Positions 7,881-56,172 of a stretch of 64,000 nt of DNA are shown piece by piece. The stretch lies in contig NZ_JAODBG010000011.1 of the NCBI RefSeq assembly GCF_025463825.1, positions 1 to 64,000 of the forward strand, given 5' to 3'. The notes beneath the pieces are model-generated. The model saw only the letters and a program-made list of their open reading frames with translations. It did not search any database and was not told where the DNA came from. The DNA comes from Cryobacterium sp. GTDB taxonomy: Bacteria; Actinomycetota; Actinomycetes; Actinomycetales; Microbacteriaceae. How positions within the stretch are numbered: position 1 is the first letter of the stretch; the number at the start of each line of letters is the position of its first letter. The position numbers were made by a program, and so were the translations under genes.

Positions 7881-7911
7881 GTTGGTCAGCCAACACGACT
7901 AGCCTCCATGG
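7881..7911 (+). promoter_or_regulatory. Dyad and leaderless-type promoter before the GNAT gene
   Basis: GTTGG-TCAG-CCAAC forms a perfect 5-bp inverted repeat at 7881-7894. The -10-like hexamer TAGCCT at 7900-7905 ends six bases before the ATG at 7912, the same spacing seen at copB, so translation is probably leaderless. The dyad overlaps the expected -35 area and could be an operator, or a weak terminator for copB. Confidence 0.4.
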
Positions 7912-8490: not shown

Positions 8491-8491
8491 G

Positions 8492-35665: not shown

Positions 35666-35718
35666 GCGGTGTACCCTTTTCGTGGCCGGCACCGGCCGAC
35701 GAGACGGGCGGGTGAACG

Positions 35719-36456: not shown

Positions 36457-36893
36457 TGCGCCCCGTGCACCTGCGCTGGCGCGCCATCGCCCTTGTTTTC
36501 GCAGGCGGCACGGTGGGCACTGCACTGCGCGAGCTCCTGGCGATCTCGGTTCCGCCGGTGGCCGGGGTAGCGGTGGTGATCGTGGGCATCAACGTGGTGG
36601 GTGCGTTCCTGCTCGGCCTGCTGCTGGAAACTCTGACGAGCCGCGGCGCCGATGAGGGCCGGCGCCGGCAGCTGCGACTGCTGCTGGGCACCGGGGTGCT
36701 GGGCGGTTTCACCACGTACAGCGCCCTGGCCACCGACACCACCCTGCTCCTGGCCGATGACCGTCTCGGTGCGGCCCTGCTGTACGCGCTGGGCACCGTC
36801 GTCCTCGGTGCGTTCGCTTCCTGGGCGGGCATCGCCGCCGCCGCCGCGCTGCATCGCCGGCGCCGGGTCGACGGCACGGTGGTCGACTCGTGA
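36456..36893 (+). CDS. crcB: Fluoride ion channel CrcB/Fluc, first subunit
   Basis: 145 residues, four helices. Family signatures: GTALRELLAI (the G-x2-x-R motif), NVVGAFLLGLLLE and GTGVLGGFTTYSALATDT, with the central GGFTTYS containing the F/T pore residues and the Na+ site. Fluc channels export fluoride from the cytoplasm. Tandem crcB genes usually make a heterodimer, and the second copy follows directly. The start overlaps the gpmA stop. Confidence 0.92.
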   Translation: MRPVHLRWRAIALVFAGGTVGTALRELLAISVPPVAGVAVVIVGINVVGAFLLGLLLETLTSRGADEGRRRQLRLLLGTGVLGGFTTYSALATDTTLLLADDRLGAALLYALGTVVLGAFASWAGIAAAAALHRRRRVDGTVVDS

Positions 36894-37270
36894 CTCCGCT
36901 GCTCTTCCTGGTCGTCGCCCTGGCCGGCGGCCTCGGCGCGGCTGGGCGCCTGGTCCTGGACGGTCTGGTCAGAGCCCGGGTGCGCACGGCGTTGCCCGTC
37001 GGCACGTTGCTCATCAACGGGCTCGGCTCCCTGGTGCTCGGCCTGATCACCGGGCTCACCCTGGCCCTCTGGCTGCCGGAGGCCTGGCATCTCGTGCTCG
37101 GTGGCGGTGTGATGGGCGGCTTCACCACCTTCAGCACCGCCAGCTATGAGACCGTGCGGCTGGCCCGAGCCCGGCGCGCCGTGACCGCCCTGGCCAGCGG
37201 CCTAGGGATGCTCGTGCTGTCGGTGGGCTGCGCATTCCTCGGCCTCTGGCTGGGCCTCGCGGCCGACTAA
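36890..37270 (+). CDS. crcB: Fluoride ion channel CrcB/Fluc, second subunit
   Basis: 126 residues, four helices: GGLGAAGRLVLDGL, GTLLINGLGSLVLGLITGL and GGGVMGGFTTFSTASYET. All pore motifs are intact. The GTG start overlaps the stop of the first crcB (GTGA), so both subunits would be made together. I see no fluoride (crcB) riboswitch before this operon. A nested hairpin follows. Confidence 0.92.
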   Translation: MTPLLFLVVALAGGLGAAGRLVLDGLVRARVRTALPVGTLLINGLGSLVLGLITGLTLALWLPEAWHLVLGGGVMGGFTTFSTASYETVRLARARRAVTALASGLGMLVLSVGCAFLGLWLGLAAD

Positions 37271-37373: not shown

Positions 37374-37868
37374 TCAGATCGACTCGTTGTGCCGGGCCAC
37401 GGCCTCGGTCACCCAGGAGAGCTCGTCCACGAACCGGCCGAGCAGCCGGGCGAACTCGGTGCGGTCGGGCTCGGTCCACTTGCCCACCAGGGTGTCGTAC
37501 ACGCCCTGGGCGAGCTCCCGGTGCTTCGCAATCGCGGTGCGGCCCTCTTCTGTTGCCGTCACGAGCACGGCGCGGCGATCGATGGGATCCGGCCGGCGGA
37601 CCACCAGGCCCGACTTCTCCAGCCGGCGGATCTCGGTGGTCATCGTCGACTTGTCCACGGCCATCCAGCCGGCGAGCTTCGACATCCGCAGCGGACCGGC
37701 CACCACCACCCGTTCCAGCAGCCAGGAGTCGGTGCTCGACAGTGCGGCACCGCTGGAGTCGTGCAGCATCCGTCGGTTTTCGGCGCGGGTGGACCACCGC
37801 AGGATCGTCGACAGCGCCGATTCGAGTGCCTCACCCACCGGGGCATCGGGTTCGCGGCTCTGAACCAT
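37374..37868 (-). CDS. MarR-family transcriptional regulator
   Basis: 164 residues from ATG 37868. Winged helix at ~45-115: LSSTDSWLLERVVVAGPLRMSKLAGWMAVDKSTMTTEIRRLEKSGLV, then the wing RRPDPIDRRAVLVTAT. It is divergent from terC; a 20-bp dyad (37906-37925) lies between them. MarR proteins often control a divergent neighbour, so terC is the likely target. Confidence 0.88.
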   Translation of the reverse strand: MVQSREPDAPVGEALESALSTILRWSTRAENRRMLHDSSGAALSSTDSWLLERVVVAGPLRMSKLAGWMAVDKSTMTTEIRRLEKSGLVVRRPDPIDRRAVLVTATEEGRTAIAKHRELAQGVYDTLVGKWTEPDRTEFARLLGRFVDELSWVTEAVARHNESI

Positions 37869-37905: not shown

Positions 37906-37925
37906 TAGTTGGAGGAACCCAACTA
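37906..37925. promoter_or_regulatory. MarR-type operator candidate between marR-like gene and terC
   Basis: TAGTTGG-AGGAAC-CCAACTA (37906-37925) is a perfect 7+7 bp dyad, the size expected of MarR sites, 38 bp from the regulator start. A -10-like TAACAT for terC overlaps its right arm (37924-37929). Confidence 0.5.
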
Positions 37926-38017: not shown

Positions 38018-39199
38018 ATGGACATACCCGGATACGTCTGGCTCCTCACGATCCTCGGCATCCTCGCACTGCTTACCTTCGACTTCTTCTTCCACGTGCG
38101 CAAGGCGCACGAGCCGACGCTGCCCGAGGCTGCAAAGTGGTCTGCGATCTACGTCGGTATCGCGATCCTCTTCGGACTGGGCGTCCTGCTCTTCGGTGGC
38201 GGCACACTCGGCACCGAGTACTTCGCCGGGTACATCACCGAGAAGGCCTTGTCCGTCGACAATCTGTTCGTGTTCCTGATCATCATGGCAAGCTTCAAGG
38301 TGCCCCGCGCCGACCAGCAGAAGGTGCTGCTCTTCGGCATCGTCTTCGCACTGATCGCCCGCACCGGTTTCATCTTCCTCGGCGCGGCCCTGATCAACTC
38401 GTTCGCCTGGTTGTTCTACCTGTTCGGCGCGTTCCTCATCTACACGGCCATCAAGCTGCTCAAGCCAGAAGCCGAGAGCGACGAGGCCGACAACTTCATC
38501 ATCCGCCTCGCCAAGCGCCTCTTCCACACCACCGAGCGCTACGACGGCGACCGCCTGTTCACCATGGAGAACGGCAAGAAGGTCATGACCCCGATGCTCC
38601 TGGTCATGGTGGCCATCGGTGGAACCGACCTCCTGTTCGCGCTGGACTCCGTGCCCGCGATCTTCGGCCTCACCCAGAACGTCTACATCGTCTTCACCGC
38701 CACGGCGTTCTCGCTGATGGGCCTCCGTCAGCTGTACTTCCTCATCGACGGCCTGCTCGACCGCCTGATCTATCTCAGCTACGGCCTCGCCGCGATCCTG
38801 GGCTTCATCGGCATCAAGCTGGTGCTGCACGCGCTGCACGAGAACGCCCTGCCGTTCATCAACGGTGGCGAGCACGTGCCGGTCTTCGAGATCAGCACCG
38901 GCCTGTCCCTCGCCGTGATCATCGGCGTCCTCGCGGTCACCGTTGTCGCGTCGCTGGTCAGCCCGGCCGGCCGCGCCCACAGCGCAATCGCCCTCAGCCG
39001 CGGCTCCGCCAAGAAGTACCTCGCCGGCGAATTCAGTGGCAAGGGTGAAACCCGGGACGAGACCTATGCCCTCGTCGTCGCCCACGAGCGTGCCCTGGGC
39101 CTACTCACGCCCAAGCACCACGCCCGTGCCGCCGAGGATGAGGAACTGCAGGCCCTGCTCGCCGAGGCCCACGCAGCGCACAACAGCGTCACCAAGTAG
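38018..39199 (+). CDS. terC: TerC-family membrane protein
   Basis: 393 residues, about nine helices. Signatures: FDFFFHVRKAHEPTLPEA, GYITEKALSVDNLFVFLII (with the acid metal-binding residues E and D) and the matching GGTDLLFALDSVPAIFGLT. A ~60-residue cytoplasmic loop separates the two halves; the C-terminus is a ~70-residue soluble helix. TerC proteins are linked to tellurite resistance and Mn2+ export or metalation of secreted proteins. ATG 38018 has CCGGAGAA ahead of it. It stands just before the Ter operon but ends in a strong terminator. Confidence 0.9.
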   Translation: MDIPGYVWLLTILGILALLTFDFFFHVRKAHEPTLPEAAKWSAIYVGIAILFGLGVLLFGGGTLGTEYFAGYITEKALSVDNLFVFLIIMASFKVPRADQQKVLLFGIVFALIARTGFIFLGAALINSFAWLFYLFGAFLIYTAIKLLKPEAESDEADNFIIRLAKRLFHTTERYDGDRLFTMENGKKVMTPMLLVMVAIGGTDLLFALDSVPAIFGLTQNVYIVFTATAFSLMGLRQLYFLIDGLLDRLIYLSYGLAAILGFIGIKLVLHALHENALPFINGGEHVPVFEISTGLSLAVIIGVLAVTVVASLVSPAGRAHSAIALSRGSAKKYLAGEFSGKGETRDETYALVVAHERALGLLTPKHHARAAEDEELQALLAEAHAAHNSVTK

Positions 39200-39205
39200 C
39201 GGTTC

Positions 39206-39258
39206 GAGAAGCGGGCGGCGGATCGGGCGGAATTTCGCCCGGTCCCCGCCCGCTTCTC
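39206..39258 (+). terminator. Nested terminator-like hairpin after terC
   Basis: GAGAAGCGGGCGG (39206-39218) and CCGCCCGCTTCTC (39246-39258) are exact complements; the loop contains CGGGCG-GAATTT-CGCCCG (39224-39241). No U-tract follows beyond CTTTG. It should separate terC from the TerD operon. Confidence 0.7.
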
Positions 39259-39283
39259 TCGGCTTTGTCACCGGCGAGGCCTC

Positions 39284-39289
39284 TAGACT
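39284..39289 (+). promoter_or_regulatory. Possible -10 of the Ter operon
   Basis: TAGACT in the gap before terD; a TTGTCA at 39265-39270 is only 13 bp upstream, so the -35 is uncertain. Initiation here would leave a leader of about 110 bases before the ATG at 39407. Confidence 0.3.
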
Positions 39290-39406
39290 GGGCGCGCACT
39301 GGCGCTGGCCGTGCCAGGCGGCGAACCTCGTCCGCACGCACCAGGCCCCGCCCCACGAACCAACTGCATCAGCAGCTACCGAAAACGTCACACGAAGGAG
39401 TACACA

Positions 39407-39997
39407 ATGGGTTTGAGCTTGTCAAAGGGCCAGTCTCTCTCACTGACCAAGGCGGATGGCGGCAGCCTCTCGAAAGTCCGGATGGGCCTCGGCTGGGACA
39501 GCGCCGCCCCGGTCAAGCGCGGCCTGTTCAGTCGCGGCAAGGCCGCTGAGGTCGACCTGGACGCCTCGGCGATCTTCTTCGACGCCGCAGGGAAGGTCCT
39601 CGACACCGTCTGGTTCCAGCAGCTGAGCAGCAAGGACGGATCCACCCGGCACACCGGCGACAACCTCACCGGAGCCGGCGATGGCGACGACGAAACCATC
39701 CTCGTCGACCTCACCAAGGTTTCCCCCGCGGTCTCGCACATCGTCTTCGTCATCAGCAGCTACAGCCAGCAGACCTTCGACCTGGTAGAGAACGCGTTCA
39801 GCCGCCTCGTGGACGACTCCTCCGCCGGCACCCCTGAGGTCGCCCGATACCAGCTGACCGATAGCGGTCCGCACACCGCGATGATCATGTCGAAGGTCTC
39901 TCGCGACGGCGCCGGCTGGACCTTCAAGGCCGTCGGCGAGCGGGCCACCGGACGCTCGGCGATGGACTTGCTCACCGCAGCAGCGAAGGTAATCTGA
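39407..39997 (+). CDS. terD: TerD-family protein (first of three)
   Basis: 196 residues, one TerD beta-sandwich. It opens with SLSKGQSLSLTK, has LGWD near residue 30, the Ca2+-binding segments VDLDASAIFFD and TGDNLTGAGDGDDETI, and the closing AGWTFKAVGERATG. TerD proteins bind calcium and are thought to sit at the membrane with TerC or TelA. A strong ribosome site (GAAGGAG) precedes it. An insertion near residues 32-45 (KRGLFSRGK) is specific to this copy. Confidence 0.93.
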   Translation: MGLSLSKGQSLSLTKADGGSLSKVRMGLGWDSAAPVKRGLFSRGKAAEVDLDASAIFFDAAGKVLDTVWFQQLSSKDGSTRHTGDNLTGAGDGDDETILVDLTKVSPAVSHIVFVISSYSQQTFDLVENAFSRLVDDSSAGTPEVARYQLTDSGPHTAMIMSKVSRDGAGWTFKAVGERATGRSAMDLLTAAAKVI

Positions 39998-40049
39998 CCC
40001 GCACCACCAGCTCATCCACCCCGCAGTCACACACAAGGAGAGAATTCCC

Positions 40050-40628
40050 ATGGCAGGTCTGACACTCGCAAAAGGCAACAACCTCTCGCTGACCAAGGTC
40101 AGCCCCGGACTCACGGTCGCCACCGTCGGCCTCGGCTGGGACCCCCGCACGACTAGCGGTGAGGCGTTCGACCTGGATGCCTCCGCGCTGCTCATCGGCG
40201 ACAACGGCAAGGTGCGCTCCTCCGCCGACTTCATCTTCTACAACCAGCCGGCCGCTGCCGACAAGTCGGTCGTGCACCTCGGTGACAACCGTTCCGGCGC
40301 CGGCGAGGGCGATGACGAGCAGATCACCATCGACCTCAACCTGGTGGCCAGCGACGTGTCCCGCGTCGTGATCGTGGTTTCGATCGACAAGGCGGATGCA
40401 CGCCGCCAGAACTTCGGCCAGGTGCGCGGGGCGTACTGCCGCGTCGTCGACCAGGACAACAACGAGATCGTGCGCTTCGACCTGAGCGAGGACGCCGCCC
40501 CCGAGACCGCGATGCTTTTCGCGGAGGTCTACCGCAACGGCTCCGACTGGAAGTTCAAGGCCGTCGGCCAGGGCTACACCTCCGGACTTGCGGGCATCGC
40601 CACCGACTTCGGGATCTCGCTCGACTAA
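40050..40628 (+). CDS. terE: TerD-family protein (second of three)
   Basis: 192 residues. Canonical TerD/TerE/TerZ features: LTLAKGNNLSLTK, VGLGWDPR, FDLDASALLIGDNGKV, HLGDNRSGAGEGDDEQI (calcium site) and DWKFKAVGQGYTSGLAG. It is closer to TerE/TerD of enteric ter operons than the first copy. Ribosome site AAGGAGAG is present. The two TerD genes are 52 bp apart with a clear shared direction. Confidence 0.92.
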   Translation: MAGLTLAKGNNLSLTKVSPGLTVATVGLGWDPRTTSGEAFDLDASALLIGDNGKVRSSADFIFYNQPAAADKSVVHLGDNRSGAGEGDDEQITIDLNLVASDVSRVVIVVSIDKADARRQNFGQVRGAYCRVVDQDNNEIVRFDLSEDAAPETAMLFAEVYRNGSDWKFKAVGQGYTSGLAGIATDFGISLD

Positions 40629-40673
40629 CGTCCCCGCCACTCCCCGCCACTTCAAAAGCAGACAGGAAGACGC

Positions 40674-41876
40674 ATGAGCTCGCCCCTTTCTCCCCCGGAC
40701 GCCACCGAAACCGCCCTGGTCCTCAAAGCGCCGGATGCTCCGGACATCGTGGTGGCCGACGACGCTCCCGGCATGGTCCCGGTTCCCGCCGAGCGTCAAC
40801 AGGAGATTGCGCGTCAGGCTCGGGACTTCGTGGCGGATGTGTCGGCCCTCGACCCGAGGACGCCGGAGTTCACCACCAAGATCGAGGGAATTTCGGCCCT
40901 CGCCAGCACCGAGATGGTGCAGTCCAGTGGGTACTCCAGCCGGATGCTGGAGCGCTCCAGCTCCTCGGTCGCCGGCGCCAAGCGCAGTGGCAACAGTGCC
41001 CAGGTCACCGTGGCGAACACCCTCGGCGACCTGCGGACAACGGTCGAGGACCTCACTCCGAACCAGGCCGACCTCGGCGTGGGCCGCAAGATCCTGGGCT
41101 TCATCCCCGGCGGGAACAAGCTGGCGAAGTACTTCCAGAAGTACGAGTCCGCACAGACCCAGCTCGACGCCATCATCAAGTCGCTGATGAGCGGTCAGGA
41201 CGAACTCCTCAAGGACAACGCGTCCCTCGCCGGCGAGAAGGTGCAGCTATGGGAGACCATGCAGGCCCTGAGCGAGTACGCCGTCTTCGCGAAGGCCCTG
41301 GACAACGCCACCGTCGAGAAGATCGACGCGTCCCGCGCGGCCGGCCGCATCGACGAGGCGCAGAAGCTCGAAGCCGACGTGCTCTTCCCGATCCGCCAGC
41401 GCCACCAGGACATCCTCACCCAGCTCGCCGTGTCCGTGCAGGGCTACCTGGCGATGGACCTGATCCGCAAGAACAACCTCGAGCTGATCAAGGGGGTCGA
41501 CCGGGCTCGCACCACCACCATCGCGGCGTTGCGCACGGCCGTCATCGTGGCGCAGGCCCTGGCCAACCAGAAGATGGTGCTCGACCAGATCGACGCGATC
41601 AACACCACAACCAACAACATGATTCTCAAGACCAGTGAGATGCTCAAGGATCAGACCGTGCGCATTCACGAGCAGGCGTCGAGTTCCGGCGTCAGCGTCG
41701 AGACGCTGCAGAAGGCCTTTGACAACGTCTTCGAGACCATGGACGCCATCGACACCTTCCGGGTCACCGCGGCCAAGAACATGGAGGGCACTGTCACGGC
41801 GCTAGAAACCGGGTTGCAGAAGGCCAGACCCTACCTGGAGCGCAGCAAGCAGGGAGACCAGCGCGAACTGCGCTAG
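40674..41876 (+). CDS. telA: Toxic anion resistance protein, TelA family
   Basis: 400 residues, mostly alpha-helical and coiled-coil-like. The TelA domain spans ~65-385: SSVAGAKRSGNSAQVTVANTL, LGFIPGGNKLAKYFQKYESAQ, LDAIIKSLMSGQDELLKDNA, and a C-terminal helix with LANQKMVLDQIDAINTTTNN. TelA/KlaA proteins go with tellurite and other toxic-oxyanion resistance and with TerD proteins in Ter systems; biochemical role unknown. It follows terE by 45 bp and precedes an unrecognised helical protein. Confidence 0.9.
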   Translation: MSSPLSPPDATETALVLKAPDAPDIVVADDAPGMVPVPAERQQEIARQARDFVADVSALDPRTPEFTTKIEGISALASTEMVQSSGYSSRMLERSSSSVAGAKRSGNSAQVTVANTLGDLRTTVEDLTPNQADLGVGRKILGFIPGGNKLAKYFQKYESAQTQLDAIIKSLMSGQDELLKDNASLAGEKVQLWETMQALSEYAVFAKALDNATVEKIDASRAAGRIDEAQKLEADVLFPIRQRHQDILTQLAVSVQGYLAMDLIRKNNLELIKGVDRARTTTIAALRTAVIVAQALANQKMVLDQIDAINTTTNNMILKTSEMLKDQTVRIHEQASSSGVSVETLQKAFDNVFETMDAIDTFRVTAAKNMEGTVTALETGLQKARPYLERSKQGDQRELR

Positions 41877-41909
41877 ACACACAGGCAGGCAACGGGGAGG
41901 GTGACGCAG

Positions 41910-42419
41910 ATGGCATTCGGCAAGTTCGTGGATTCTTTCTTCAAGGGTCAGGCCGACTTGAGCCCGGTGAACGTCGAGCCGCGCAGGGCGGTGGAGACCG
42001 AAGACGAGGCAACCCTCGGCGCTCTCAACCAGATGCGCTCCGCGGTGCGCAGTGCCGGAGGCGAGCTACCCACGCTGCTCGCCTCCCGGCTCGCGCAGAT
42101 CGACGACCATCTGCGCCAGGTGATCGAGATGATGGCCGCGCAGAATGCCTCCACCGAACAACGGGTGCTGCTGGATGCGATGATCCGCGACTACCTGCCC
42201 ACGCCCCTGCGCGCCTACCTGGCTCTACCCGAGCGCGAGCGCACCGACGACTCCGCCGCCACCCTGCAGTTCTCCACCCAACTCGGCATCCTCGAAGAGA
42301 CGATCAGCGACTTGCTCAACCAGATCCGCATCGGCGCCATCGCTGAACTGTCCACGCACGGCCGTTTTCTCGCCGACAAGTTCGCCGCGCCCAGCCTCAC
42401 CCTGGACGGCCCGGCGTGA
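41910..42419 (+). CDS. Unrecognised helical protein of the Ter operon
   Basis: 169 residues from ATG 41910, nine bases after GGGGAGG (an in-frame GTG at 41901 abuts it and is too close). Nearly all helical: RLAQIDDHLRQVIEMMAAQN and LQFSTQLGILEETISDLLNQ look like packed helices, similar in style to small proteins found beside TelA. No catalytic motif is visible. The last codons overlap the next TerD start (GTGA), so coupling with the TerD partner is strong. It may bridge TelA and TerD. Confidence 0.7.
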   Translation: MAFGKFVDSFFKGQADLSPVNVEPRRAVETEDEATLGALNQMRSAVRSAGGELPTLLASRLAQIDDHLRQVIEMMAAQNASTEQRVLLDAMIRDYLPTPLRAYLALPERERTDDSAATLQFSTQLGILEETISDLLNQIRIGAIAELSTHGRFLADKFAAPSLTLDGPA

Positions 42420-42967
42420 GCTCGATGATCGCGGGGGCCAACGCCGCCCTCACCGCGGAGAACCCCGGCCTCACCGAGCTTCTGGTCGGCTTCGGCTGGG
42501 AGAGCATCTCCAGCCGCGGACCGCAGGCTGAGCTGGTGCCCCTAGCGATCATGTGCGACGCCCACGGCATGTCACTCTCCAACGACCACCTGGTCTTCTT
42601 CAACCAGATCGTCAGTCAGGACGGCTCCGTCGCGTTCGCAGGCGACGGCGACACCGAGCAGATCGACGTCGACCTGTCCCGGGTTCCCGCCCAGGTCTCG
42701 AAAATCGTGTTCGTGGTCTATGTGGACCCCGACGTCCGCGGCGCCGGCAACTTCTCGGCCGTGCGCTCCGCGTATGTGCGGGTCGCCACCCGGGACAACC
42801 GCGAACTGGTGCGCTTCAACCTGCCGGACGGCGAGGCCCGCGACGTGGACGTACTCATGTTCGGTGAGCTCTACCGCCACCGCGACGATTGGAAGTTCCG
42901 CGCCCTCGGTCAGGGCTACTCGACCGGGCTGCGCGGTGTCGCGGCCGACTTCGGAATCGACCTCTGA
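42416..42967 (+). CDS. TerD-family protein (third of three)
   Basis: 183 residues. TerD fold with changed calcium motifs: LVGFGWES near 23-30, the loop AFAGDGDTEQIDVDLSRVP instead of the usual GDN-x-TG-x-GDGDDE, and DDWKFRALGQGYSTGLRG at the end. Part of the usual first Asp cluster (DLDAS) is replaced by ELVPLAIMCD, so calcium affinity may be reduced. GTG start, four-base overlap with the previous gene. Confidence 0.88.
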   Translation: MSSMIAGANAALTAENPGLTELLVGFGWESISSRGPQAELVPLAIMCDAHGMSLSNDHLVFFNQIVSQDGSVAFAGDGDTEQIDVDLSRVPAQVSKIVFVVYVDPDVRGAGNFSAVRSAYVRVATRDNRELVRFNLPDGEARDVDVLMFGELYRHRDDWKFRALGQGYSTGLRGVAADFGIDL

Positions 42968-42970
42968 CCC

Positions 42971-43798
42971 GTGGTACTGAACCGTTCCGGCGTCCGCAGC
43001 GACGTCGGGTATCTGCGCCGGCGCGTAAAGCCCCGGCCCGCGGCCACGCCGGACCCGGCCGCCACGGCTCACGAACCTGAGCCCCGCCGGGCACCGCTCG
43101 CCGGCTTGTCGGTCGGTGCGGTGCCGACCGGTGCTTCGCCATCAGCGGGGTTGTCGCTGGGTCGCCCGCCGGCCGGCCCCGCGGCATCCGCCGGGTTGTC
43201 GCCGGGTCGCGCGCCGGGCGGCCCCACGGCATCCGCCCGTCCCGCTCCGGGCGTCGCGCCCACGCCGGTGCCCCCGAACCTGCTCCCGTTCCCCGCCCCC
43301 ACCATCGACGAGGTCAGCCAGCTCGGCGACACCGACCCGGTCCTGCGGCTCAACTCGCGCCAGTCAGCCGTGGGCAACCTCATCGTCAGCGGCGCCGACC
43401 TGGCCGTGTGGGAGGACGACTCGCGGGTGACCGGTTCGGCCACGGCAGCCGGTGACACTGCCGGCACCCCCGTGCGCACCTCCGGCAACCGGCCGCTGGT
43501 GGGTTTCGACGCGGCGGATGCGCTCGTCTCGTTGCGGCACGTGCGGCACCTGCGCCGCGCGTTGTTCGTCGGCAGGGGACCGACCCCGCTCGGCGTGCAG
43601 CTGTTCACGGGGTCAGCGGTCACCGTCGCGCCGGGTGACGGCAGCCGGATGTTCATCCTCTGTTTATCGAGGATCGGTAACGTGCTCGAATTGCGGGCCG
43701 AACCGGTGGACAAAAACGCTCCGGACGCCGCGATTCTGACCCAGTTCGGCTTCACCCTTACGCCATACGTCGCCCCTCGAGAGTCCCGGAGTCGATAA
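42971..43798 (+). CDS. Unrecognised Ter-operon protein with 15-residue N-terminal repeats
   Basis: 275 residues. Residues ~44-100 are Pro/Ala/Gly-rich repeats of 15 residues: LAGLSVGAVPTGASP, SAGLSLGRPPAGPAA, SAGLSPGRAPGGPTA and a degraded SARPAPGVAPTP. The C-terminal ~165 residues are a beta-rich domain (SQLGDTDPVLRLNSRQSAVG, ... LRRALFVGRGPTPLGVQLFT) of unknown family; a distant TerD-like sandwich is possible but unproven. GTG start three bases after the TerD stop. The basic N-terminus and flexible linker suggest an adaptor between TerD proteins and the enzymes downstream. Confidence 0.65.
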   Translation: MVLNRSGVRSDVGYLRRRVKPRPAATPDPAATAHEPEPRRAPLAGLSVGAVPTGASPSAGLSLGRPPAGPAASAGLSPGRAPGGPTASARPAPGVAPTPVPPNLLPFPAPTIDEVSQLGDTDPVLRLNSRQSAVGNLIVSGADLAVWEDDSRVTGSATAAGDTAGTPVRTSGNRPLVGFDAADALVSLRHVRHLRRALFVGRGPTPLGVQLFTGSAVTVAPGDGSRMFILCLSRIGNVLELRAEPVDKNAPDAAILTQFGFTLTPYVAPRESRSR

Positions 43799-43804
43799 CC
43801 ACCC

Positions 43805-44995
43805 ATGCGTCACTTCGCCTTCCTCGACGATTTCCAAGCCGATCAGCTTTTCCACCGGCGGCCACAGGAGGTGACTGTGGACTCCGCCGCGCCGCTGCTC
43901 GCGGCGGCCCTCGGCGCCACGCTGTATTGCCCGGGCGATCGGCCGCGCATTGCCGAGGCCGTAGTCAAGCAGGCCGCCCGCGGGTGCGTCAGCATGGTGC
44001 TGTGCCTCGAGGACTCGATCGCCGACAGCGCGGTGGACGGTGCCGAAATCAACGTCGCCGAGGCGATCGTCACCCTGCATCGCCTGTCGCTCGACGAACC
44101 GGACACCGCCCTGCCGCTGCTCTTCGTACGGGTGCGCACACCCGAGCAGATGCTGCGGGTGGCCGAGTCCTGCGGGGCCGGCCTCGATCTGTTGAGCGGT
44201 TTTGTGGTTCCCAAGTTCGAGAACGCGAACGGCTACGCCGAGGCGTTCTTCGTCGTCCTGCGCCAGATCCAGCGGCTGAGCGGTGCCGACGGGTTAGCCG
44301 GCGGCAAACGCCTGCGCTTGATGCCGATCCTCGAGTCACCGAATATGATCCACAGCGAAACCCGCAACTCGGCGCTCTCGTCCATCCGCGAGATCTTGCA
44401 CGAGAACCGCGACGACGTGCTGGCCGCCCGGATCGGCGCCACCGACCTCTCCAGCGCATTCGGCCTGCGCCGCTCCCGTGACCTCACGGTGTACGACGTG
44501 CAGGTGGTCGCGTCGGTGATCTCCGACATCGTGAACGTTCTGGGCCGATCCGACGACAACTTCGTGATCACCGGCACGGTCTGGGAGCACTACGAGACCG
44601 AGCGCATCCTGCGCCCGCAACTGCGGATGACCCCATTCGTGGAGGCCAACGAGCGGGAGCTCCGGCATCGGCTGCTGCTCGGCGGCCTGGACGGCCTGAT
44701 CCGGGAGATCTCCCTCGACCAGGCCAACGGGTTGCTCGGCAAGACCGTGATCCACCCCACCCACGTGCCCGTCGTGCACGCCATGTCCGTCGTCAGCCAC
44801 GAGGAGTTCCTCGACGCCTCGGTGATACTCAGCGACGTGACCGGCGGGGCCAGCGCCTCCCCGTACGGCAACAAGATGAACGAAGCCAAGCCGCACTCCA
44901 CCTGGGCCCACCGCACCATGCTGCGCGCCCAGGCCTTCGGTGTCGCATCCGAGTCCACCACCTTCGTGGACCTCCTCGAAGCGAGCATGCGGTGA
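43805..44995 (+). CDS. HpcH/CitE-like C-C bond lyase of Ter systems
   Basis: 396 residues. TIM barrel related to citrate lyase beta and HpcH aldolases: GATLYCPGDRPRIAEAVVK, the Mg-binding acid in LCLEDSIADSAVDGAE, VVPKFENANGYAE, LMPILESPNMI and RIGATDLSSAFGLRR, with KTVIHPTHVPVVHA near the end. It is the C-C lyase of the Ter-associated biosynthetic module described from comparative genomics (TerD-linked TIM barrel). It would split or join a carbon-carbon bond in the proposed nucleoside-like metabolite. The following gene overlaps by four bases. Confidence 0.85.
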   Translation: MRHFAFLDDFQADQLFHRRPQEVTVDSAAPLLAAALGATLYCPGDRPRIAEAVVKQAARGCVSMVLCLEDSIADSAVDGAEINVAEAIVTLHRLSLDEPDTALPLLFVRVRTPEQMLRVAESCGAGLDLLSGFVVPKFENANGYAEAFFVVLRQIQRLSGADGLAGGKRLRLMPILESPNMIHSETRNSALSSIREILHENRDDVLAARIGATDLSSAFGLRRSRDLTVYDVQVVASVISDIVNVLGRSDDNFVITGTVWEHYETERILRPQLRMTPFVEANERELRHRLLLGGLDGLIREISLDQANGLLGKTVIHPTHVPVVHAMSVVSHEEFLDASVILSDVTGGASASPYGNKMNEAKPHSTWAHRTMLRAQAFGVASESTTFVDLLEASMR

Positions 44996-46482
44996 CCCTG
45001 ACCACCCCGTTCTGGCCGACGGGTTCGGTCCGCGACGCCCTCGACATCCACGTGCGCACGGATGACGCGCGCAGCATCCTCGACGTAGACGCCCTGGTGG
45101 GCATCGCGCTCCGCCACAACCCCAAGCGCGCCCACCTGCTGGTGTCCACCGTGCTCGCCAAGCACGTGCCCACGGTGCCCGGAATCGCCCTGGCGGCTGG
45201 AGAGCTGCTCGGATTGCTCGTCTCCGACGCCCTCGGCGCCGACGGCGGCACTGGCGCCGGCACCGCGCAGCGGGCGCGCGAGTTCGGTGGCCGTCTCGGC
45301 GCCCTGGTCACCCTCCTCGCCGAGGGGGCCGGGCCACGCACCCCCGCGGCCACCGACCGGGCCCGCCTCGACCTCACGGACCTCCGCCGCGAGATCCGCG
45401 CCGCCACCACGGCACACCCGGACGTGGTGGCCCTCGGCTATGCCGAAACCGCGACCGGGCTCGGCCAGCTCGTCGCCGACGCCCTCCACGCCTACTACCT
45501 GCACTCCACCCGGCACGCGCCCGCCGGAGCGACGTCGTTCGCCGGGTTCGCCGAAGAGCATTCACACGCCACCGACCACGCACTGCTGCCGACCGACCCG
45601 GAGTGGCTGTGCGCCGGCGGCACCGCGATCCTGGTGGACGACGAACTCAGCACCGGCACCACCGTGATCAACACCGTCACGGCCTTGCACGCCCTCCGCC
45701 CGCAACGGCACTGGGTGATCGCCTCGCTCATCGACCTCCGGTCCGCGGCCGACCTGGCCCGGTTCGACGACCTGGCCGGACGTCTCGACACGCGGATTGA
45801 CGTGGTTTGCCTGGCCGCCGGCTCCATCGCGCTGCCCCCCGACGTTCTCACGCGCGCCGGCCGGCTGATCGATTCGATGTCCGCCGCCGAGCCGGCAGCC
45901 GACGGCACCGAGCCTCTGGGCGGCGCCGTGCACCTGCTCGATTGCACCGATCTGCCCCCGGTGCGGAGCGCTCGTTTCGGCACCACCGAACCTGTCTCCA
46001 CCGCGCTGGCCGCCACGATCGCCCGGCGGGTGGCCACGACGCTGCCGGCCGTCGATTCGACCCGGCCAACCAGCACACCCGACCGTGGCGTCCTGGTACT
46101 CGGCTCAGAAGAATTCATCGCCCTGCCGATGTTCATCGCCGACGAGCTCGCCAGTGCAGCCGCGTCGCGGACCGTCAGGTTCTCCACCAGCACCCGGTCG
46201 CCGATCGCCACTCTGGACCGACCCGACTACCCCATCCATAGCGCCATCCGGTTCCAGAGCCACGACACGACCTCGGACGGGGTCGGCGTGCGCTTCGCCT
46301 ACAACCTCACCACCGCCCACCAACGTTTCGGCGCCGTGGTGTTCCTGCCGGAACCGGGCACCGATCCTGCCACGCTCGACGGCGCCGACGGCGTGATCGA
46401 CGCCATCCGCCAGGTGAGCGACAACGTCGTGGTCGTGCTGTTGACAGCGTCGACCCTGACCGAAGGGACCCCCACCCCATGA
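44992..46482 (+). CDS. Ter-associated phosphoribosyltransferase with TRSP domain
   Basis: 496 residues. The N-terminal phosphoribosyltransferase domain (~20-290) has the conserved NPKRAHLLVSTVLAKHVP segment and the PRPP loop AILVDDELSTGTTVINT (~220-236). The C-terminal domain (~355-490) carries the name-giving TRSP in FSTSTRSPIATLDRPDYPI. This PRTase+TRSP pairing is known from Ter systems, where it is predicted to attach a ribosyl phosphate to a base-like acceptor. GTG start overlapping the lyase stop. Confidence 0.85.
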   Translation: MTLTTPFWPTGSVRDALDIHVRTDDARSILDVDALVGIALRHNPKRAHLLVSTVLAKHVPTVPGIALAAGELLGLLVSDALGADGGTGAGTAQRAREFGGRLGALVTLLAEGAGPRTPAATDRARLDLTDLRREIRAATTAHPDVVALGYAETATGLGQLVADALHAYYLHSTRHAPAGATSFAGFAEEHSHATDHALLPTDPEWLCAGGTAILVDDELSTGTTVINTVTALHALRPQRHWVIASLIDLRSAADLARFDDLAGRLDTRIDVVCLAAGSIALPPDVLTRAGRLIDSMSAAEPAADGTEPLGGAVHLLDCTDLPPVRSARFGTTEPVSTALAATIARRVATTLPAVDSTRPTSTPDRGVLVLGSEEFIALPMFIADELASAAASRTVRFSTSTRSPIATLDRPDYPIHSAIRFQSHDTTSDGVGVRFAYNLTTAHQRFGAVVFLPEPGTDPATLDGADGVIDAIRQVSDNVVVVLLTASTLTEGTPTP

Positions 46483-47663
46483 CGATCCTTCCCCCGGCGG
46501 CCGTGCTGCCCACTCCGCTCAGCGGCCCCGCCTTCGGTTCCTACGCCGCGGACGACGTGCGCTGGTTGCTCAAGGACCTTGAGGGCGTCGCACTCGAGGC
46601 GCCCGCAGAAGAACGGGAATACCTGATCCAGACCGGCGAAGCGAACTACGCCGAGTCGCTGCCCATCGAATACCTGCCGTCGCCGGAGTACGAGGCGCTG
46701 TACCGGGAGGCCCTGGACCGCTCCGGTCGCCGGCTCGCCGAGGCCGTGGGGGTCGTCACCGACCTTGCCCTCGCCGCGCGCGACAACCGCCCGGTGTTCG
46801 TCTCCCTGGCCAGAGCCGGCACGCCGATCGGCATCCTGATGCGACGCTGGGCACTGCAGGAGCGCGGCATCGACGTGCCGCACTACACGATGAGCATCGT
46901 GCGCGGTGTCGGGCTCGACCAGACCGCCCTGCGCTACCTCGCCGCCCACCACGACCCGGCGCAGATCATCTTCGTCGACGGCTGGACCGGCAAAGGGGCC
47001 ATCGCCCGCGAACTCTCCGCGGCCATCGCCCTGTTCGGCGAGACCGACGGCATCTTCTTCCCGAACGACCTCGCGGTGCTCGCCGACCCCGGCCACTGTG
47101 TCACCATCCACGGCACCCGCGAGGACTATCTGATCCCCTCCGCCTGCCTGAACTCCACCGTCTCCGGGCTCGTGTCGCGCACCGTTTTCAACACCGAGCT
47201 GATCGGGCCGGACGACTTCCACGGCGCGAAGTTCTACGCCGACCTCGCCCCGAACGACGTCTCCGGGGCGTTCCTCGACACCGTCTGCGGATACTTCCCC
47301 GACATCCATGACGACGTGTCCGCCGGCGTCGCCGTGGCGAACGCCGAGGACCGCACGCCGTCCTGGATCGGCTGGCAGGCCGTGGAACGCATCAGCGCCG
47401 AGCAGGGCATCAACAACGTGAACCTGGTGAAGCCCGGCGTCGGTGAGACCACCCGGGTGCTGCTGCGGCGCATCCCCTGGAAGGTGCTGGTGCGGGCGGA
47501 TGCCGTGGCCGACATCGCCCACGTGCTGCTGTTAGCCGAGCAACGCGGCGTCGCGATCGAGGCCGTCCCCGACCTGCCGTATAGCTGCGTCGGACTCATC
47601 CGCCCCGGTGGCAGCAGCCCGGCTCCCGCCCCGGCCCCGACCCCGACCGAAGGTGCCTTGTGA
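46479..47663 (+). CDS. Ter-associated phosphoribosyltransferase with PELOTA domain (StiP-like)
   Basis: 394 residues. The first ~300 form a second PRTase-like domain with PRPP-loop IIFVDGWTGKGAIARELSAAI (~163-183) and VSLARAGTPIGILMRRW. Residues ~305-375 match the PELOTA RNA-binding-like module (VRADAVADIAHVLLLAEQRG, VPDLPYSCVGLIRP). The family is often labelled cysteine protease StiP, but the PRPP motif favours transferase chemistry. A Pro/Ala tail closes it. ATGA overlap with the previous gene. Confidence 0.83.
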   Translation: MTILPPAAVLPTPLSGPAFGSYAADDVRWLLKDLEGVALEAPAEEREYLIQTGEANYAESLPIEYLPSPEYEALYREALDRSGRRLAEAVGVVTDLALAARDNRPVFVSLARAGTPIGILMRRWALQERGIDVPHYTMSIVRGVGLDQTALRYLAAHHDPAQIIFVDGWTGKGAIARELSAAIALFGETDGIFFPNDLAVLADPGHCVTIHGTREDYLIPSACLNSTVSGLVSRTVFNTELIGPDDFHGAKFYADLAPNDVSGAFLDTVCGYFPDIHDDVSAGVAVANAEDRTPSWIGWQAVERISAEQGINNVNLVKPGVGETTRVLLRRIPWKVLVRADAVADIAHVLLLAEQRGVAIEAVPDLPYSCVGLIRPGGSSPAPAPAPTPTEGAL

Positions 47664-48544
47664 ACGCCTCCCATCTCGTCGCCTGCGACCTGGACCGCAC
47701 CCTGATCTACTCGTCGCGGGCGTTCTGGCTCGAGACCGACGACGCCGATGCTCCCTCGATCGTGGTCTCCGAGGTCTACCAGGGGGTGCCGCTCTCGTAC
47801 ATGACCCGGACCGCCGAGCGGCTCCTGGTCGACCTCGCCGGCACGGCCACCTTCGTGCCCGTCACCACCCGCACCGTCGCCCAGTACAGTCGCGTGCAGC
47901 TGCCCGGACCTGTGCCGCGTTACGCCATCACCACCAACGGCGGCACGATCCTCACCGACGGTGAACCGGATGCCGACTGGTCCCGTGCCTTGCAGTCCCG
48001 GCTGAACACCGACGCCGCCCCGCTGGCCGAGGTGCGGGCCCTGCTGGACGATCCGGCCGCCACCGACTGGATCCTGCGGGTGCACACCGCCGAAGACCTC
48101 TTCACCTACGCGATCATCGACCGCGACGCGATGCCCGCGACCTGGATCGACGGCCTGCACGCCCAGTGCCTGGCGCTCGGCTGGACCGTCTCGGTGCAGG
48201 GCCGCAAGCTCTACTGCGTGCCGGCAGCCGTAAACAAGAGCGCGGCCGTCGCCGAGGTGCGCCGCCGGCTCGGCGCACCCACCGTGCTGGCCGCCGGCGA
48301 CTCGCTTCTCGACCAGCGGATGCTCGAGGAGGCGCACTTCGCCTACCGGCCGGCGCACGGCGAACTGCACGAGGCCGCCTTCCAGAGCCACAACCTCGTC
48401 GTCACCAGCGCGCGCGGAATCCTGGCCGGCGAGGAGCTGCTGCGCTCCATCACCGCCCAGATCCTCAGCGGTTCGCCCGTGTCCGGCGCGTCGGCCAAGG
48501 TCGGCTCGGCCCCGCTCGCCGCTCGCTCACCCGTCGGCCGGTGA
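47660..48544 (+). CDS. HAD-superfamily hydrolase of the Ter module
   Basis: 294 residues. HAD motif I DLDRTL (residues ~10-15, nucleophile Asp), motif II Thr in VTTRT, motif III Lys in AVNKSAAVAEV and motif IV GDSLLDQRM. The insert between II and III is a C2-type cap as in sugar-phosphate phosphatases. It is the predicted phosphatase that finishes the metabolite made by the lyase and the two PRTases. GTG start, four-base overlap. The last ~25 residues are Ser/Ala-rich. The LysR gene stop is only six bases away. Confidence 0.87.
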   Translation: MNASHLVACDLDRTLIYSSRAFWLETDDADAPSIVVSEVYQGVPLSYMTRTAERLLVDLAGTATFVPVTTRTVAQYSRVQLPGPVPRYAITTNGGTILTDGEPDADWSRALQSRLNTDAAPLAEVRALLDDPAATDWILRVHTAEDLFTYAIIDRDAMPATWIDGLHAQCLALGWTVSVQGRKLYCVPAAVNKSAAVAEVRRRLGAPTVLAAGDSLLDQRMLEEAHFAYRPAHGELHEAAFQSHNLVVTSARGILAGEELLRSITAQILSGSPVSGASAKVGSAPLAARSPVGR

Positions 48545-48550
48545 CGTCGG

Positions 48551-49447
48551 TCAGGCGGGCGAACGTTGCTCCCGCGCGGCCCGCGCAAGCGCCCGCAGCA
48601 ACGCGTTCGCGGCGGGCGAGCCCAGGCCGGCGTCGCGTTGCGCGGTGAAGATGGTGCGCCGCGGCTGCCCGGGCAGGTCGATGAGCCGGCACGAGGTGTC
48701 GCGGCCGGTCCAGACCAGGTCGGGCATCAGCCCGACGGCGTTGCCCGATTCGATCAGCCGGATCTGTGATTGCAGGTCGGCCGCCTCGTACCGCACGTCG
48801 GGTTCGAATCCGGCCGAGCGGCAGGCCTGCTCGGCGAAGTGCCGGGAGGCGCTTCCGCGTGGTTCCATCACCCACGCCCGTCCGCGCATGTCGGTGAGCG
48901 CGGTGCCCGCCGTCCCTGCCGGCACCGCGAGGCGGATGGCGTCGGTGGTCAGGTCGCGCCGCTCGAGGCCCGGTAGCCACGCCGCGGAGTGCGCCGGGTA
49001 CTGCTCGGCGATGACCATGTCGAAGTCCCTGGCCCAGGTCTCGTGCAGCGCCTCTTCCGGTTCCTTCTGCACCATCTCGACCCGCACGTCCGGGTATTCC
49101 GCGGACATGGTCCCCAGCGCCGACGGCATCAGCGCCAGCGCGGCCGACTGGAACACGGCCACTCGTACCTTCCCGCGGACGCTGGTGTGCGCGGCCTGCA
49201 GTTCCGCTTCCGCACGCTCGAGGATGTTCGAGAGCTCTTCGGCGGCGGCCACGAGGATCTCCGCCTGCGGGGTCAGTTGCACCCGGCGACCGGATTTTCG
49301 CAGCAGAACAGTGCCGGTCTCCTTCTCCAGCAGAGTCAGCTGCTGCGATACCGCCGACGGGCTGTAGACCAGCGCCTCGGCGACGGCGGCCATGGTGCCG
49401 CGGATCGAGAGCTCACGCAGCAGCATCAGGCGGTGCACATCTAACAC
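48551..49447 (-). CDS. LysR-family regulator divergent to putA
   Basis: 298 residues from GTG 49447. HTH at ~3-62 (LLRELSIRGTMAAVAEALVYSPSAVSQQLTLLEKE), then a LysR substrate domain with VRVEMVQKEPEEAL and GNAVGLMPDLVW. The ribosome site AAGGGTGGA supports the GTG over the TTG at 49462. It faces putA across 138 bp, the normal place for a LysR activator, so control of proline use is likely. Confidence 0.87.
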   Translation of the reverse strand: MLDVHRLMLLRELSIRGTMAAVAEALVYSPSAVSQQLTLLEKETGTVLLRKSGRRVQLTPQAEILVAAAEELSNILERAEAELQAAHTSVRGKVRVAVFQSAALALMPSALGTMSAEYPDVRVEMVQKEPEEALHETWARDFDMVIAEQYPAHSAAWLPGLERRDLTTDAIRLAVPAGTAGTALTDMRGRAWVMEPRGSASRHFAEQACRSAGFEPDVRYEAADLQSQIRLIESGNAVGLMPDLVWTGRDTSCRLIDLPGQPRRTIFTAQRDAGLGSPAANALLRALARAAREQRSPA

Positions 49448-49585
49448 GGGTCCACCCTTCAATCAGCACAGCTTATGGATAACGGTAAGAAACGATCGCT
49501 TTTCTTGACGCTTCTTTCTCCGAATACTAGGGGATAGGCCCGCAGGCTTCTCCTCGGCCTCCTTCCTCCCCCGCGAAAGGTCGCC

Positions 49586-52500
49586 ATGACCCTCCTCTCA
49601 GCCGCCCCGGGCGCGAGCACCCCGACCTCCCCGTCCGCCGATTCCGTCGACGCCACCCTGAGCGCCGAAGCCATCGCGCTGGTGCGCCGGTGGCTGCGCG
49701 AGGCCTCGTCGTATCCGGTGGATGCCTCCGGCGCGCAGTTGGCCGGGGTGCTCAAGGACCCGAAGGGACTCGACTTCACCGTCGGCTTCGTCGATGGTGT
49801 CGTGCGGCCGGAGGACGTGAAGGTGGCGGCAGCGAAGCTCAAGGCGATCGCGCCCCAGGTGCCGGGCTTCCTGCCTGCCGCGCTGCGCGGCGCCGTCAGG
49901 CTCGGCGGCACCATGGCCCCCATCCTGCCCGGGGTGGTGGTTCAACCTGCTCGGCGAAGCCGTGCTCGGCCGGGGCGAGGCCGGCCGCCGGCTCGAGGGC
50001 ACGCACAAGCTGCTCGCCCGCGGCGACGTCGACTACGTGTCGATCAAGGTCTCGTCCACCGTCGCCCCGCACAACCCCTGGGCCTTCGACCAGGCCGTCG
50101 ACGACGTCGTGGCGGAGCTGGCCCCGCTCTTCACCCGCGCCGCCGCCGCCCCGACCGCCAAGTTCGTCAACCTCGACATGGAGGAATTCACGGACCTCGA
50201 CCTCACCATCGCGGTCTTCACCCGCATCCTCGACCGGCCCGAATTCCTGCACCTCGAGGCCGGCATCGTGCTGCAGGCCTACCTGCCGGACGCCCTGGCG
50301 GCCATGATCCGGCTGCAGGAATGGAGTGCAGCCCGGCGCGCCCGCGGTGGTGCCGCCATCAAGGTGCGCCTGGTCAAGGGTGCGAACCTGCCCATGGAGC
50401 AGGTGGAAGCCTCGGTGCACGGCTGGCCGCTGGCCACCTGCACCTCCAAGGTGGACACCGACACCAACTACAAGCGGGTCATCGACTACGCGCTGCAGCC
50501 CGAGCGCATCCGCAATGTGCGAGTGGGCGTCGCCGGCCACAACCTCTTCGATGTCGCCTACTCCTGGCTGCTCGCCGGCCGCCGCGGCGTGCGCGCCGGC
50601 ATCGAATACGAGATGCTGCTGGGCACGGCCCAGGGCCAGGCCGAGGCGGTGCGCCGCGAGGTCGGTTCGCTGCTGCTCTACACACCGGTGGTGTCCCCCA
50701 CCGAGTTCGACGTGGCCATCGCGTACCTGATCCGGCGTCTGGAAGAGGGCGCCTCCAGCGACAACTTCATGTCGGCGGTGTTCGAGCTCGACCAGAACGA
50801 AGACCTCTTCGCCCGCGAGCAGGAGCGGTTCCTCGCCTCCGTCGCCGGCCTGGACGGCCTCGTGCCGCCAACGCACAAGGTCGCCGACCGGTACGCCGCC
50901 GTCCCCGGCCGGTCGCGGGCGCGTTCCAGAACACCCCGGACACCGACCCGTCCGTCGCCGCGAACCGGGACTGGGCCCGAGCCATCCTGGACCGGGTGCC
51001 GAGCTCTGGGCTCGGCCTCGCCAGCGTTGCCGCCGCGCAGGTCGGCGACCCGGCCGAGTTGGACCGTGTCGTGGCCGCCGCGGCCGCGGCCGGCGCCGCG
51101 TGGGGCCTGCTGCCGGGCGCCGAGCGCGCACGGGTGCTGCACCGCGTGGGCGACGAAATCGAACTGCGCCGCGCCGAGTTCCTCGAGGTGATGGCCGCCG
51201 AAGCCGGCAAGGCCATCGACCAGGGCGACCCGGAGGTCTCCGAGGCCGTCGACTTCGCGCACTACTACGCCGAACTCGCCGCCGAACTCGACAGTGTGGA
51301 CGGCGCCCGGTTCACGCCGGCCGCCGTCACCCTGATCACCCCACCGTGGAACTTCCCCGTCGCCATTCCCGCCGGCGGGGCGATCGCCGCCCTCGCCGCG
51401 GGGTCCGCCGCGATCCTGAAGCCGGCCGCCCTCACCGCCCGGTGCGGTGCGATCGTCGCCGAGGCGATGTGGGCGGCCGGCGTGCCCTCTGACCTGCTGC
51501 GGTTGATCCAGGTGAGCGAACGGAACCTCGGCGCGCAGCTGGTCGCACACCCGCAGGTGGACCGGGTGATCCTCACCGGGGCCTACGAGACCGCGGAGCT
51601 GTTCCGGTCCTTCCGCGCCGATCTGCCCCTGCTCGCCGAGACCAGCGGCAAGAACGCCATCATCGTGACCCCATCGGCGGACCTCGACCTCGCCGTCAAG
51701 GATGTGGTCTCCTCCGCGTTCGGGCACGCCGGTCAGAAGTGCTCCGCGGCATCCCTGGTGGTCTTGGTGGGCTCGGTCGCCGAATCGGCCCGGTTCCGCA
51801 CCCAGCTGCTGGACGCGGTGTCCTCCCTCACCGTCGGCTATCCGGAAGACTCCGCGACCCAGATGGGACCGATCATCGAACCGGCCGCCGGCAAGCTGCT
51901 CGCCGGCCTCAGCACGCTGGGCGCCGGGGAACGCTGGCTGCTCCAGCCCCGCCAGCTCGACGATACCGGCCGGTCCTGGACCCCGGGCGTTCGCGACGGC
52001 GTCTCGCGCGGCTCCGAGTGCCACCGGATCGAGTATTTCGGCCCGATCCTGGGCATCATGACCGCCGCCACCCTCACGGAGGCCATCGCCCTCGTCAACG
52101 ACGTCGACTACGGGCTCACCTCCGGGCTGCACGCCCTCGACCCGCGCGAGATCGGCCAGTGGCTGGGCAGCATCCAGGCGGGCAACCTCTACGTGAACCG
52201 CGGCATCACCGGCGCCATCGTGCGCCGCCAGCCCTTCGGCGGCTGGAAGGAGTCCGCCGTCGGCCCCGGCGCCAAGGCCGGCGGCCCGGACTACCTGACC
52301 GGCCTCGGCTCCTGGACCCCGGCTCCGGCCGGGACCGGGGTGGCCGTGACCGACGCCCGAGTGGCTGGTCTTGTGGCGGCCGCCCGCGCCGAGTTGCCTG
52401 CCGCGGAGGCCGACAGCCTTGATCGCGCGACCCGCAGCGACGCGGCGGCCTGGGCCACCCGCTTCGGTGTGGCCGACGACGTCTCGCAGCTGACCGCCGA

Positions 52501-52939: not shown

Positions 52940-53097
52940 GCGGCGGGACCGGGGGTCTCGCCGTTAGGCGACTCACGGCCCGAGGGCATCGGCGGCGACC
53001 AGGTCAATCAGCAGGTCGACAATTGGGCCCCTTCGGGCGGAACGTCCGGCGGGCAGCCGCGATGCGCTCGCGACCGCCCTGCAGTGCAACTCGCTGT

Positions 53098-54755: not shown

Positions 54756-54786
54756 AGGAATCGGTTCCTTTCACTTGAGTCACACG

Positions 54787-56151: not shown

Positions 56152-56172
56152 CAGCAAGGGAAGACAGGCGTT

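Follow-up and report, generated by a model that had tools for sequence, protein, structure and literature searches.

The 64,000-nucleotide stretch analyzed here (the window; Cryobacterium sp., contig NZ_JAODBG010000011.1) carries a conserved accessory Ter block, which belongs to a known kind of system and does not form a new class. What is new is the TelA-type actinobacterial layout, a member with the TerD fold that sequence models had missed, and, in a relative, an empty site at the corresponding place. The core of the block is a run of ten + strand open reading frames (ORFs) spanning 39407-48544, which an initial annotation had described as a Ter system joined to a predicted nucleoside-like biosynthetic module. 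That description holds: all ten genes lie where they had been placed, seven of them match named families far above the cut-off and the HAD gene does so weakly, and the families co-occur across genera, their homologues not being scattered. The unit is nevertheless larger than the ten genes to which it had been confined, as it also includes a TerC and a MarR gene (12 genes, 11.3 kb). The distances between the ten genes are, in order, 52, 45, 24, -4, +3, +6, -4, -4 and -4, so that the four-base overlaps reported at most junctions from 42.4 kb on are found at four of six. The source genome is a 3.5-Mb draft in 147 contigs, 96% complete.

A Conserved Four-Gene Enzyme Module

The back half of the run consists of a CitE-like C-C bond lyase (CCL; 43805-44995; Pfam C-C_Bond_Lyase, 5.6e-109), a phosphoribosyltransferase (PRTase) with PRTase_2 and TRSP domains (hereafter PRT; 44992-46482; Pfam 2.7e-57 and 1.1e-23, respectively), StiP fused to PELOTA_1 (46479-47663; Pfam 8.3e-100 and 1.8e-34) and a HAD-IIB phosphatase (47660-48544). 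For comparison, the best 80 of 326 confirmed loci were taken, found with the StiP protein; since only the best matches were kept, this set leans to close relatives. Within it, the closest named relatives of the StiP protein belong to Cryobacterium, a genus of Microbacteriaceae, with 86-88% identity. The order CCL-PRT-StiP-HAD is preserved on the same strand in 72 of the 80 loci, which places the module beyond chance, and the remaining eight are cut by the contig start (a locus was counted as cut when its first match lay less than 4 kb from the locus start, and all eight begin at the end of a contig or close to it).

The residues expected of working enzymes are retained as well. In CCL, E69, D70, R109, R111, E177 and D214 are identical in 75/75 aligned rows, and the loop of PRT, a phosphoribosyl pyrophosphate (PRPP)-type VDDELSTG in the window, follows the pattern VDDE.STG in 73/76, the three misses being loci cut by the contig start. 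The HAD gene, whose family scores are weak (NCBIfam HAD-IIB E 1.8e-5, below its cut-off; best Pfam E 0.054), is recognizable by its catalytic residues D10, D12, T69, K193, D214 and D218, identical in 83/83 aligned rows, window included. These counts derive from aligned columns for CCL and HAD and from the shorter loop pattern for PRT; narrower patterns matched, for example, in 5/73, 38/80 and 6/76. Sequence searches of the PDB with StiP, CCL and PRT gave 0 matches each.

A TelA-Type Front Half with a Predicted Fourth TerD-Like Fold

The six genes ahead of the enzymes encode TerD1 (39407-39997; Pfam TerD, E 2.8e-46; within a longer frame from 39311), TerD2 (40050-40628; E 5.3e-76), TelA (40674-41876; Pfam TelA, 1.3e-85), u5 (41901-42419), TerD3 (42416-42967; Pfam TerD, E 6.8e-48) and u7 (42971-43798). 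TerD1 and TerD2 carry both acidic motifs, DLDAS and GDN..GAG.GDDE, which we take to be calcium sites. TerD3 has lost them: ELVPL stands in place of DLDAS and the acidic loop is deleted, as in all eight aligned TerD3 rows (source included).

This gene order precedes the back half in 11 of the 80 loci, namely three from Cryobacterium, one from Subtercola and seven from the Arthrobacter group, each of which has a further TerD copy or a fragment of one. Both u5 and u7 occur in the same 11 loci as TelA, and u5, a protein of 172 aa, can be regarded as a TelA companion on the basis of this co-occurrence (11/11). Of the two proteins that had been left unassigned, u5 stays without a family, no Pfam match of its 12 aligned members being better than E 0.027; its weak, scattered matches were taken as chance.

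In the case of u7, which likewise has no Pfam match, the modelled structure is informative. Its N-terminal part is Pro/Ala-rich and of low complexity, while the C-terminal part (approximately residues 114-265) is modelled by AF2 with a per-residue confidence (pLDDT) of about 90 (whole-model pTM 0.55). Structural matching with VIA aligns it with chain 9a6r_B (SCP2 of 9a6r; Z 11.7, root-mean-square deviation (rmsd) 3.1, 138 aligned), presumably a TerD-family protein, then with Streptomyces coelicolor TerD (3ibz; Z 9.6, rmsd 3.1, 124 aligned) and Klebsiella pneumoniae TerD (2kxt; Z 7.3, rmsd 3.8), after which the next match drops to Z 4.3. Foldseek gave nothing at E <= 0.001 and nothing titled TerD among its best 50 rows, and an assignment of u7 to TerD by sequence was rejected, as the hhalign probabilities of 0.2% against TerD and 9% against the C-terminal part of TerA are not significant. 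The assignment therefore rests on the fold, since neither sequence profiles nor Foldseek connect u7 to TerD. Judged by its model, the C-terminal domain of u7 is the fourth TerD-like fold of the operon, missed by Pfam.

Extent and Distribution of the Accessory Block

Directly upstream of the ten genes lies a gene for a TerC-family membrane protein (38018-39199, + strand; Pfam TerC, 7.8e-51), overlooked earlier, behind a divergent gene for a MarR-family regulator (37374-37868, - strand; Pfam MarR, 5.3e-12). The TerC ORF is open from 37931 and probably starts at a conserved ATG at 38018; the MarR ORF is open to 37922, and its start was set at 37868 because the longer ORF would cover a palindrome described below. 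The limits of the block are drawn by G022, a genome of the same genus, in which window positions 35703-37261 and 48557-49941 find their counterparts at 5617-7191 and 7205-8586 on a single stretch. There, the crcB and LysR genes are neighbours with 13 unaligned bases between them; MarR, TerC and all ten genes are absent, and no TerD match occurs anywhere in that genome. As crcB and LysR adjoin in G022 without any of these genes, MarR, TerC and the ten genes form one accessory unit of 12 genes and 11.3 kb.

This unit is patchy in the genus: TerD is present in 3/41 genomes, the source counted, and 38/41 are without it. A TerC orthologue of 93% identity was found in one of the 40 other genomes of the genus (G453; other TerC matches <=70%), which also carries the operon and all three TerD genes. 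G453 and locus L046 were counted as one genome and not as two witnesses, because their alignments to the window are identical. Strong CCL matches (E ~1e-108) occur in 2/60 genomes, the source and G050, the next best being 1.2e-12; as many as 39/60 pass the low cut-off of this family through generic relatives. The order crcB-MarR-TerC-operon is kept in the Cryobacterium loci L046, L047 and L048, and MarR adjoins TerC in L046-L049 with 64-85% identity. Within the DNA examined, LysR and PutA follow downstream only in L047 among L046-L048. G+C is 0.648 at 38-42 kb vs 0.68-0.76 in the remainder of the window.

A second arrangement is found in G015, a genome of the same genus that is 99% complete (locus L166, G015:C1:3172000-3191000). 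One strand carries DUF475, TerD1, TerD2, a TerD fragment, TelA, u5, TerD3 and u7, and the opposite strand PRT, StiP and HAD; its copies of u5 and u7 are divergent, with 31% and 36% identity.

Some observations concern the right flank. This region is itself variable: in place of 48454-56158 (~7.7 kb, LysR and PutA included), L046 has ~2.3 kb and L048 ~3.4 kb of DNA that does not align. The PutA-like gene (49586-52939) reads in more than one frame, and the window is short of 116 bases at 49941/49942 in comparison with G022 and L047; the gene is either broken or wrongly assembled.

Putative Regulatory and Non-Coding Elements

The palindrome TAGTTGG-N6-CCAACTA (37906-37925, no strand) is retained in 5/5 aligned loci, with one arm base differing in L049 (Subtercola). 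It is the sole exact copy in the draft genome, and two further places match at two mismatches vs 14 for a reversed-pattern control; it would suit a MarR operator placed at the promoter of TerC. The gap between TerC and TerD1 holds a 24-pair, terminator-like hairpin without a U-tract (39206-39258, + strand; region 39198-39275, -55.1 kcal/mol, z -6.3). At this position L046-L048 show, by eye, a GC-rich inverted repeat of other sequence, and L049 shows none. Upstream of TerD1, a non-coding block (39278-39307, + strand) is conserved in an alignment of five loci and may be a promoter; its interpretation as a repeated operator was discarded as not beyond chance. Likewise, a Mn riboswitch before TerC was rejected for want of an Rfam match, and sub-threshold "miRNA" matches at 39.2 kb correspond to the hairpin. 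A scan of the window for consensus promoters and terminators was uninformative.

ATP-Grasp, TerB and TerY

The initial annotation had also regarded the locus as a reduced version, lacking ATP-grasp, TerB and TerY genes. The absences stand as far as they were searched: none of the 12 block proteins scanned matches ATP-grasp, TerB has no match in the whole genome, and VWA/TerY has none among the 12 block proteins, to which the search for VWA was confined. The sole ATPgrasp_Ter match elsewhere in the source genome falls below the cut-off (23.4 bits) and lies in a 1487-aa frame with two CPSase_L_D2 ATP-grasp matches, so that a Ter-family ATP-grasp hidden elsewhere in the genome was rejected.

To place the missing ATP-grasp gene in context, 396 genomes of the phylum were sampled, the places of ATPgrasp_Ter being those among the matches listed. 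A strong StiP match occurs in 16 of them (source included); in three others it is partial, at E 7e-27 to 2e-30, and in one it falls below the cut-off. ATPgrasp_Ter is matched at E < 1e-32 in seven of the 16, in every case on another contig or megabases from StiP. For G408 the listed matches (4e-10 and 6e-9) also lie on other contigs, G163 gives no match, and in the other seven, source included, the best E is at least 4.7e-6. Thus, among the matches listed, no above-cut-off ATPgrasp_Ter lies near a strong StiP in these 16 genomes, where weaker ones are possible. The model is moreover unspecific, with matches in 360/396 genomes and in 13/14 control genomes, as it cross-matches other ATP-grasp enzymes. 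Within these limits, sequence matches suggest that the ATP-grasp gene stands outside this cluster across the phylum and that the locus is not specially reduced; with TerC next door and no ATP-grasp found beside StiP in the sampled genomes, the earlier wording is misleading.

The strong ATPgrasp_Ter genes belong to L146 (G081), G184, G217, G238, G249, G302 and G390, seven genomes of one genus, probably Streptomyces. That they might be a detached piece of the module was rejected because of their distance from StiP. Five other frames were scanned around ATPgrasp_Ter in L146; one gave an oxidoreductase match and the remaining four gave none.

Proposed Function and Alternative Explanations

According to the available portions of three publications (PMC7824862, PMC8115787, PMC12054061), Ter systems have been predicted to use PRTases and HAD enzymes to make a nucleoside-like signal, with TerB and TerD as possible sensors and TerC and TelA at the membrane. 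In the same portions the product of the module still figures only as a prediction, originating from an analysis of 2012. The block described here is suited to testing that prediction: with 38/41 genomes of the genus without TerD, a relative with the empty site and no linked ATP-grasp, metabolomics by presence and absence and reconstitution of the enzymes become simpler.

The explanation favoured here, to which we give even odds, is an accessory Ter stress system whose membrane TerD/TelA front half is coupled to a nucleoside-like compound made by the back half. Its observed basis is the set of genes with their predicted folds and intact catalytic motifs, their co-inheritance and the empty site; the reactions and the signalling steps are our inference, and the single signalling or resistance device of the initial annotation is likewise a proposal. 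The MarR repressor, with its palindromic operator, would sense chemical stress. TerC might move or deliver a divalent metal at the membrane, as its counterparts in other bacteria suggest: the TerC proteins of Bacillus subtilis act in the metalation of exported enzymes (PMC10550928, in the part available), and terC of K. pneumoniae is reported in the available part of PMC12054061 to contribute to resistance against Te, Zn, Mn and phage. A membrane-associated assembly would be built from TelA, u5 and a mixture of TerD subunits, in which TerD1 and TerD2, of the calcium-binding type, would respond to calcium, and TerD3 and u7, which have the TerD fold but lack the acidic motifs, would be blind to it. 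In the back half, the lyase may prepare or trim a small precursor, which the canonical PRTase would join to ribose-5-phosphate from PRPP; StiP, with its RNA-binding-type PELOTA domain, may perform a second ribosyl step; and the HAD enzyme would strip phosphate to yield a nucleoside-like compound, no ATP-grasp ligation step being encoded alongside. The compound would then signal to the front half or be used by it.

Several points weigh against this explanation, in addition to the whole-genome absence of TerB and to those that concern StiP, treated below. PADLOC gave 0 matches for the ten proteins, on which an assignment to an anti-phage family was rejected. The terminator-like hairpin separates TerC from TerD1, so that TerC may end its own transcript and be a separate unit. 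In G015, PRT-StiP-HAD has no adjoining CCL: the lyase of the window has a best E of 0.10 in a stretch ending ~200 bases past HAD, and the only match to the family in that genome lies 2.4 Mb away (8e-8, 32.7 bits), above the cut-off but resembling the generic matches of many operon-free relatives. The lyase step may therefore be dispensable or supplied by another enzyme.

The alternative that survives best, although we hold it to be unlikely, is plain metal or metalloid tolerance owed to TerC, TerD and TelA, with the enzymes serving in detoxification or being carried along as passengers. In the available text of PMC8115787, terZ-F of K. pneumoniae were enough to make Escherichia coli MG1655 resistant to tellurite without the biosynthetic genes, and in G015 the two halves stand on opposite strands. 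The enzymes are nonetheless unlike passengers, because their order is kept in 72/80 loci while the front half differs, with TelA, u5 and u7 in 11 and DUF475 plus TerD-family proteins in one scanned Streptomyces locus.

A second alternative turns on the identity of StiP, which both Pfam and the NCBI annotation of a plasmid label a cysteine protease. If the label were right, the back half would be a stress-induced protein-processing system with no nucleoside pathway, which we think improbable. Candidate protease residues are well kept (C207 in 84/85 aligned rows, D203 and H248 in 85/85), and H248 falls in residues 221-260, modelled below pLDDT 50 (mean 66.7 for the whole model; ~83 over residues 71-220). 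However, one row has Ser at position 207, and C223 is retained in 82/85 and replaced in three. The better match for the modelled core is with type I PRTases: Foldseek gives a probability of 1.00 against PyrR/HGPRT structures (4p83, 3h83 and 1ufr; E 2.5e-3 to 1e-2), and PRTases fill most of the best 50 VIA rows (Z 8.0-9.5, rmsd 2.8-6.3). In addition, S109, R112, G114, D167, T170, G171, K172 and G173 are identical in 85/85 rows. The structural evidence is not uniform. Foldseek ranks a PLP-dependent lyase first (E 9.5e-4, probability 0.63, rmsd 20.8) and its rows include several PLP enzymes. VIA puts a capsule-synthesis multienzyme at the top (Z 9.5), and models that lack a clear match often reach a best Z of 7-8. 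PRTases usually carry two acidic residues in the PRPP loop; the StiP loop, DGWTGKGAI in 81/81, has DG at this point and thus only one. A protease would leave the adjoining canonical PRTase, lyase and phosphatase unexplained, and a literature search found no source paper for the name. All in all, PRTase-like is the better reading of the StiP model. Of the two PRTase-like enzymes of the initial annotation, then, PRTase_2/TRSP is clear and StiP/PELOTA bears a conflicting name in Pfam, which its modelled fold fits less well; the database name for 46479-47663 deserves a check.

A third alternative, also of low probability, shares the PRTase-like StiP and changes its target: PELOTA would bring this domain to RNA, and the module would exchange, repair or tag an RNA base under stress without producing a free nucleoside. 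PELOTA_1 is fused to StiP, with KPGVGETTRVLLRR kept in 80/81, and the available part of PMC12054061 summarizes the Ter prediction as including RNA-dependent regulation. Conversely, the window has 0 Rfam matches at gathering scores, so that no RNA partner is seen, and a HAD enzyme and a C-C lyase suit small-molecule chemistry better. More doubtful still is a self-contained, transferable switch for stress. Its four TerD-fold proteins, two of them calcium-binding and two calcium-blind, would make a mixed assembly gated by TelA/u5, and the PRTase-PELOTA protein would put the ribosyl compound of the operon, simpler than the enterobacterial one for lack of ATP-grasp ligation, onto RNA; if true, metal or envelope stress would be turned into an RNA mark.

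Comparison with Known Ter Systems

The accessory Ter block can be set beside several known systems. The ter locus of the K. pneumoniae plasmid NZ_CP098140.1 also holds a PRTase, a HAD enzyme, StiP and a C-C lyase together near terC and TerD-family genes, the four enzymes being 29-34% identical to those of the window. In contrast, the plasmid cluster begins with ATP-grasp, has TerA, TerB, VWA/TerY-C, kinase and PP2C genes and follows another gene order, whereas the 12 proteins of the block give no match to ATP-grasp, TerB, VWA, kinase or PP2C and include TelA, u5 and u7. The Klebsiella ATP-grasp, used as a query of low sensitivity, found no match in the 80 loci.

With regard to the front half, there is a likeness to yceCDEFGH of B. 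subtilis, where TerD proteins, TerC (YceF) and TelA stand together as here; this operon is not known to include the CCL-PRT-StiP-HAD set. YceF is the protein named MeeF in the available part of PMC10550928. Ter operons of jumbo phages comprise TerD, TerC, TerF and TelA, and one phage has PRTases and HAD enzymes in addition (PMC7824862, in the part available); these operons are phage-borne, and the likeness is one of description.

Finally, the Ter clusters of Streptomyces and Tsukamurella share the order CCL-PRT-StiP-HAD with the window, and the Tsukamurella stretch, whose gene table is incomplete, has no ATP-grasp annotated either. Their front halves consist of DUF475 (TerC-like) and other TerD-family or family-less proteins, in contrast to the TelA, u5 and u7 found here. 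The fourth, predicted TerD-fold protein and the TelA companion family u5 change the parts list of TelA-type Ter systems.

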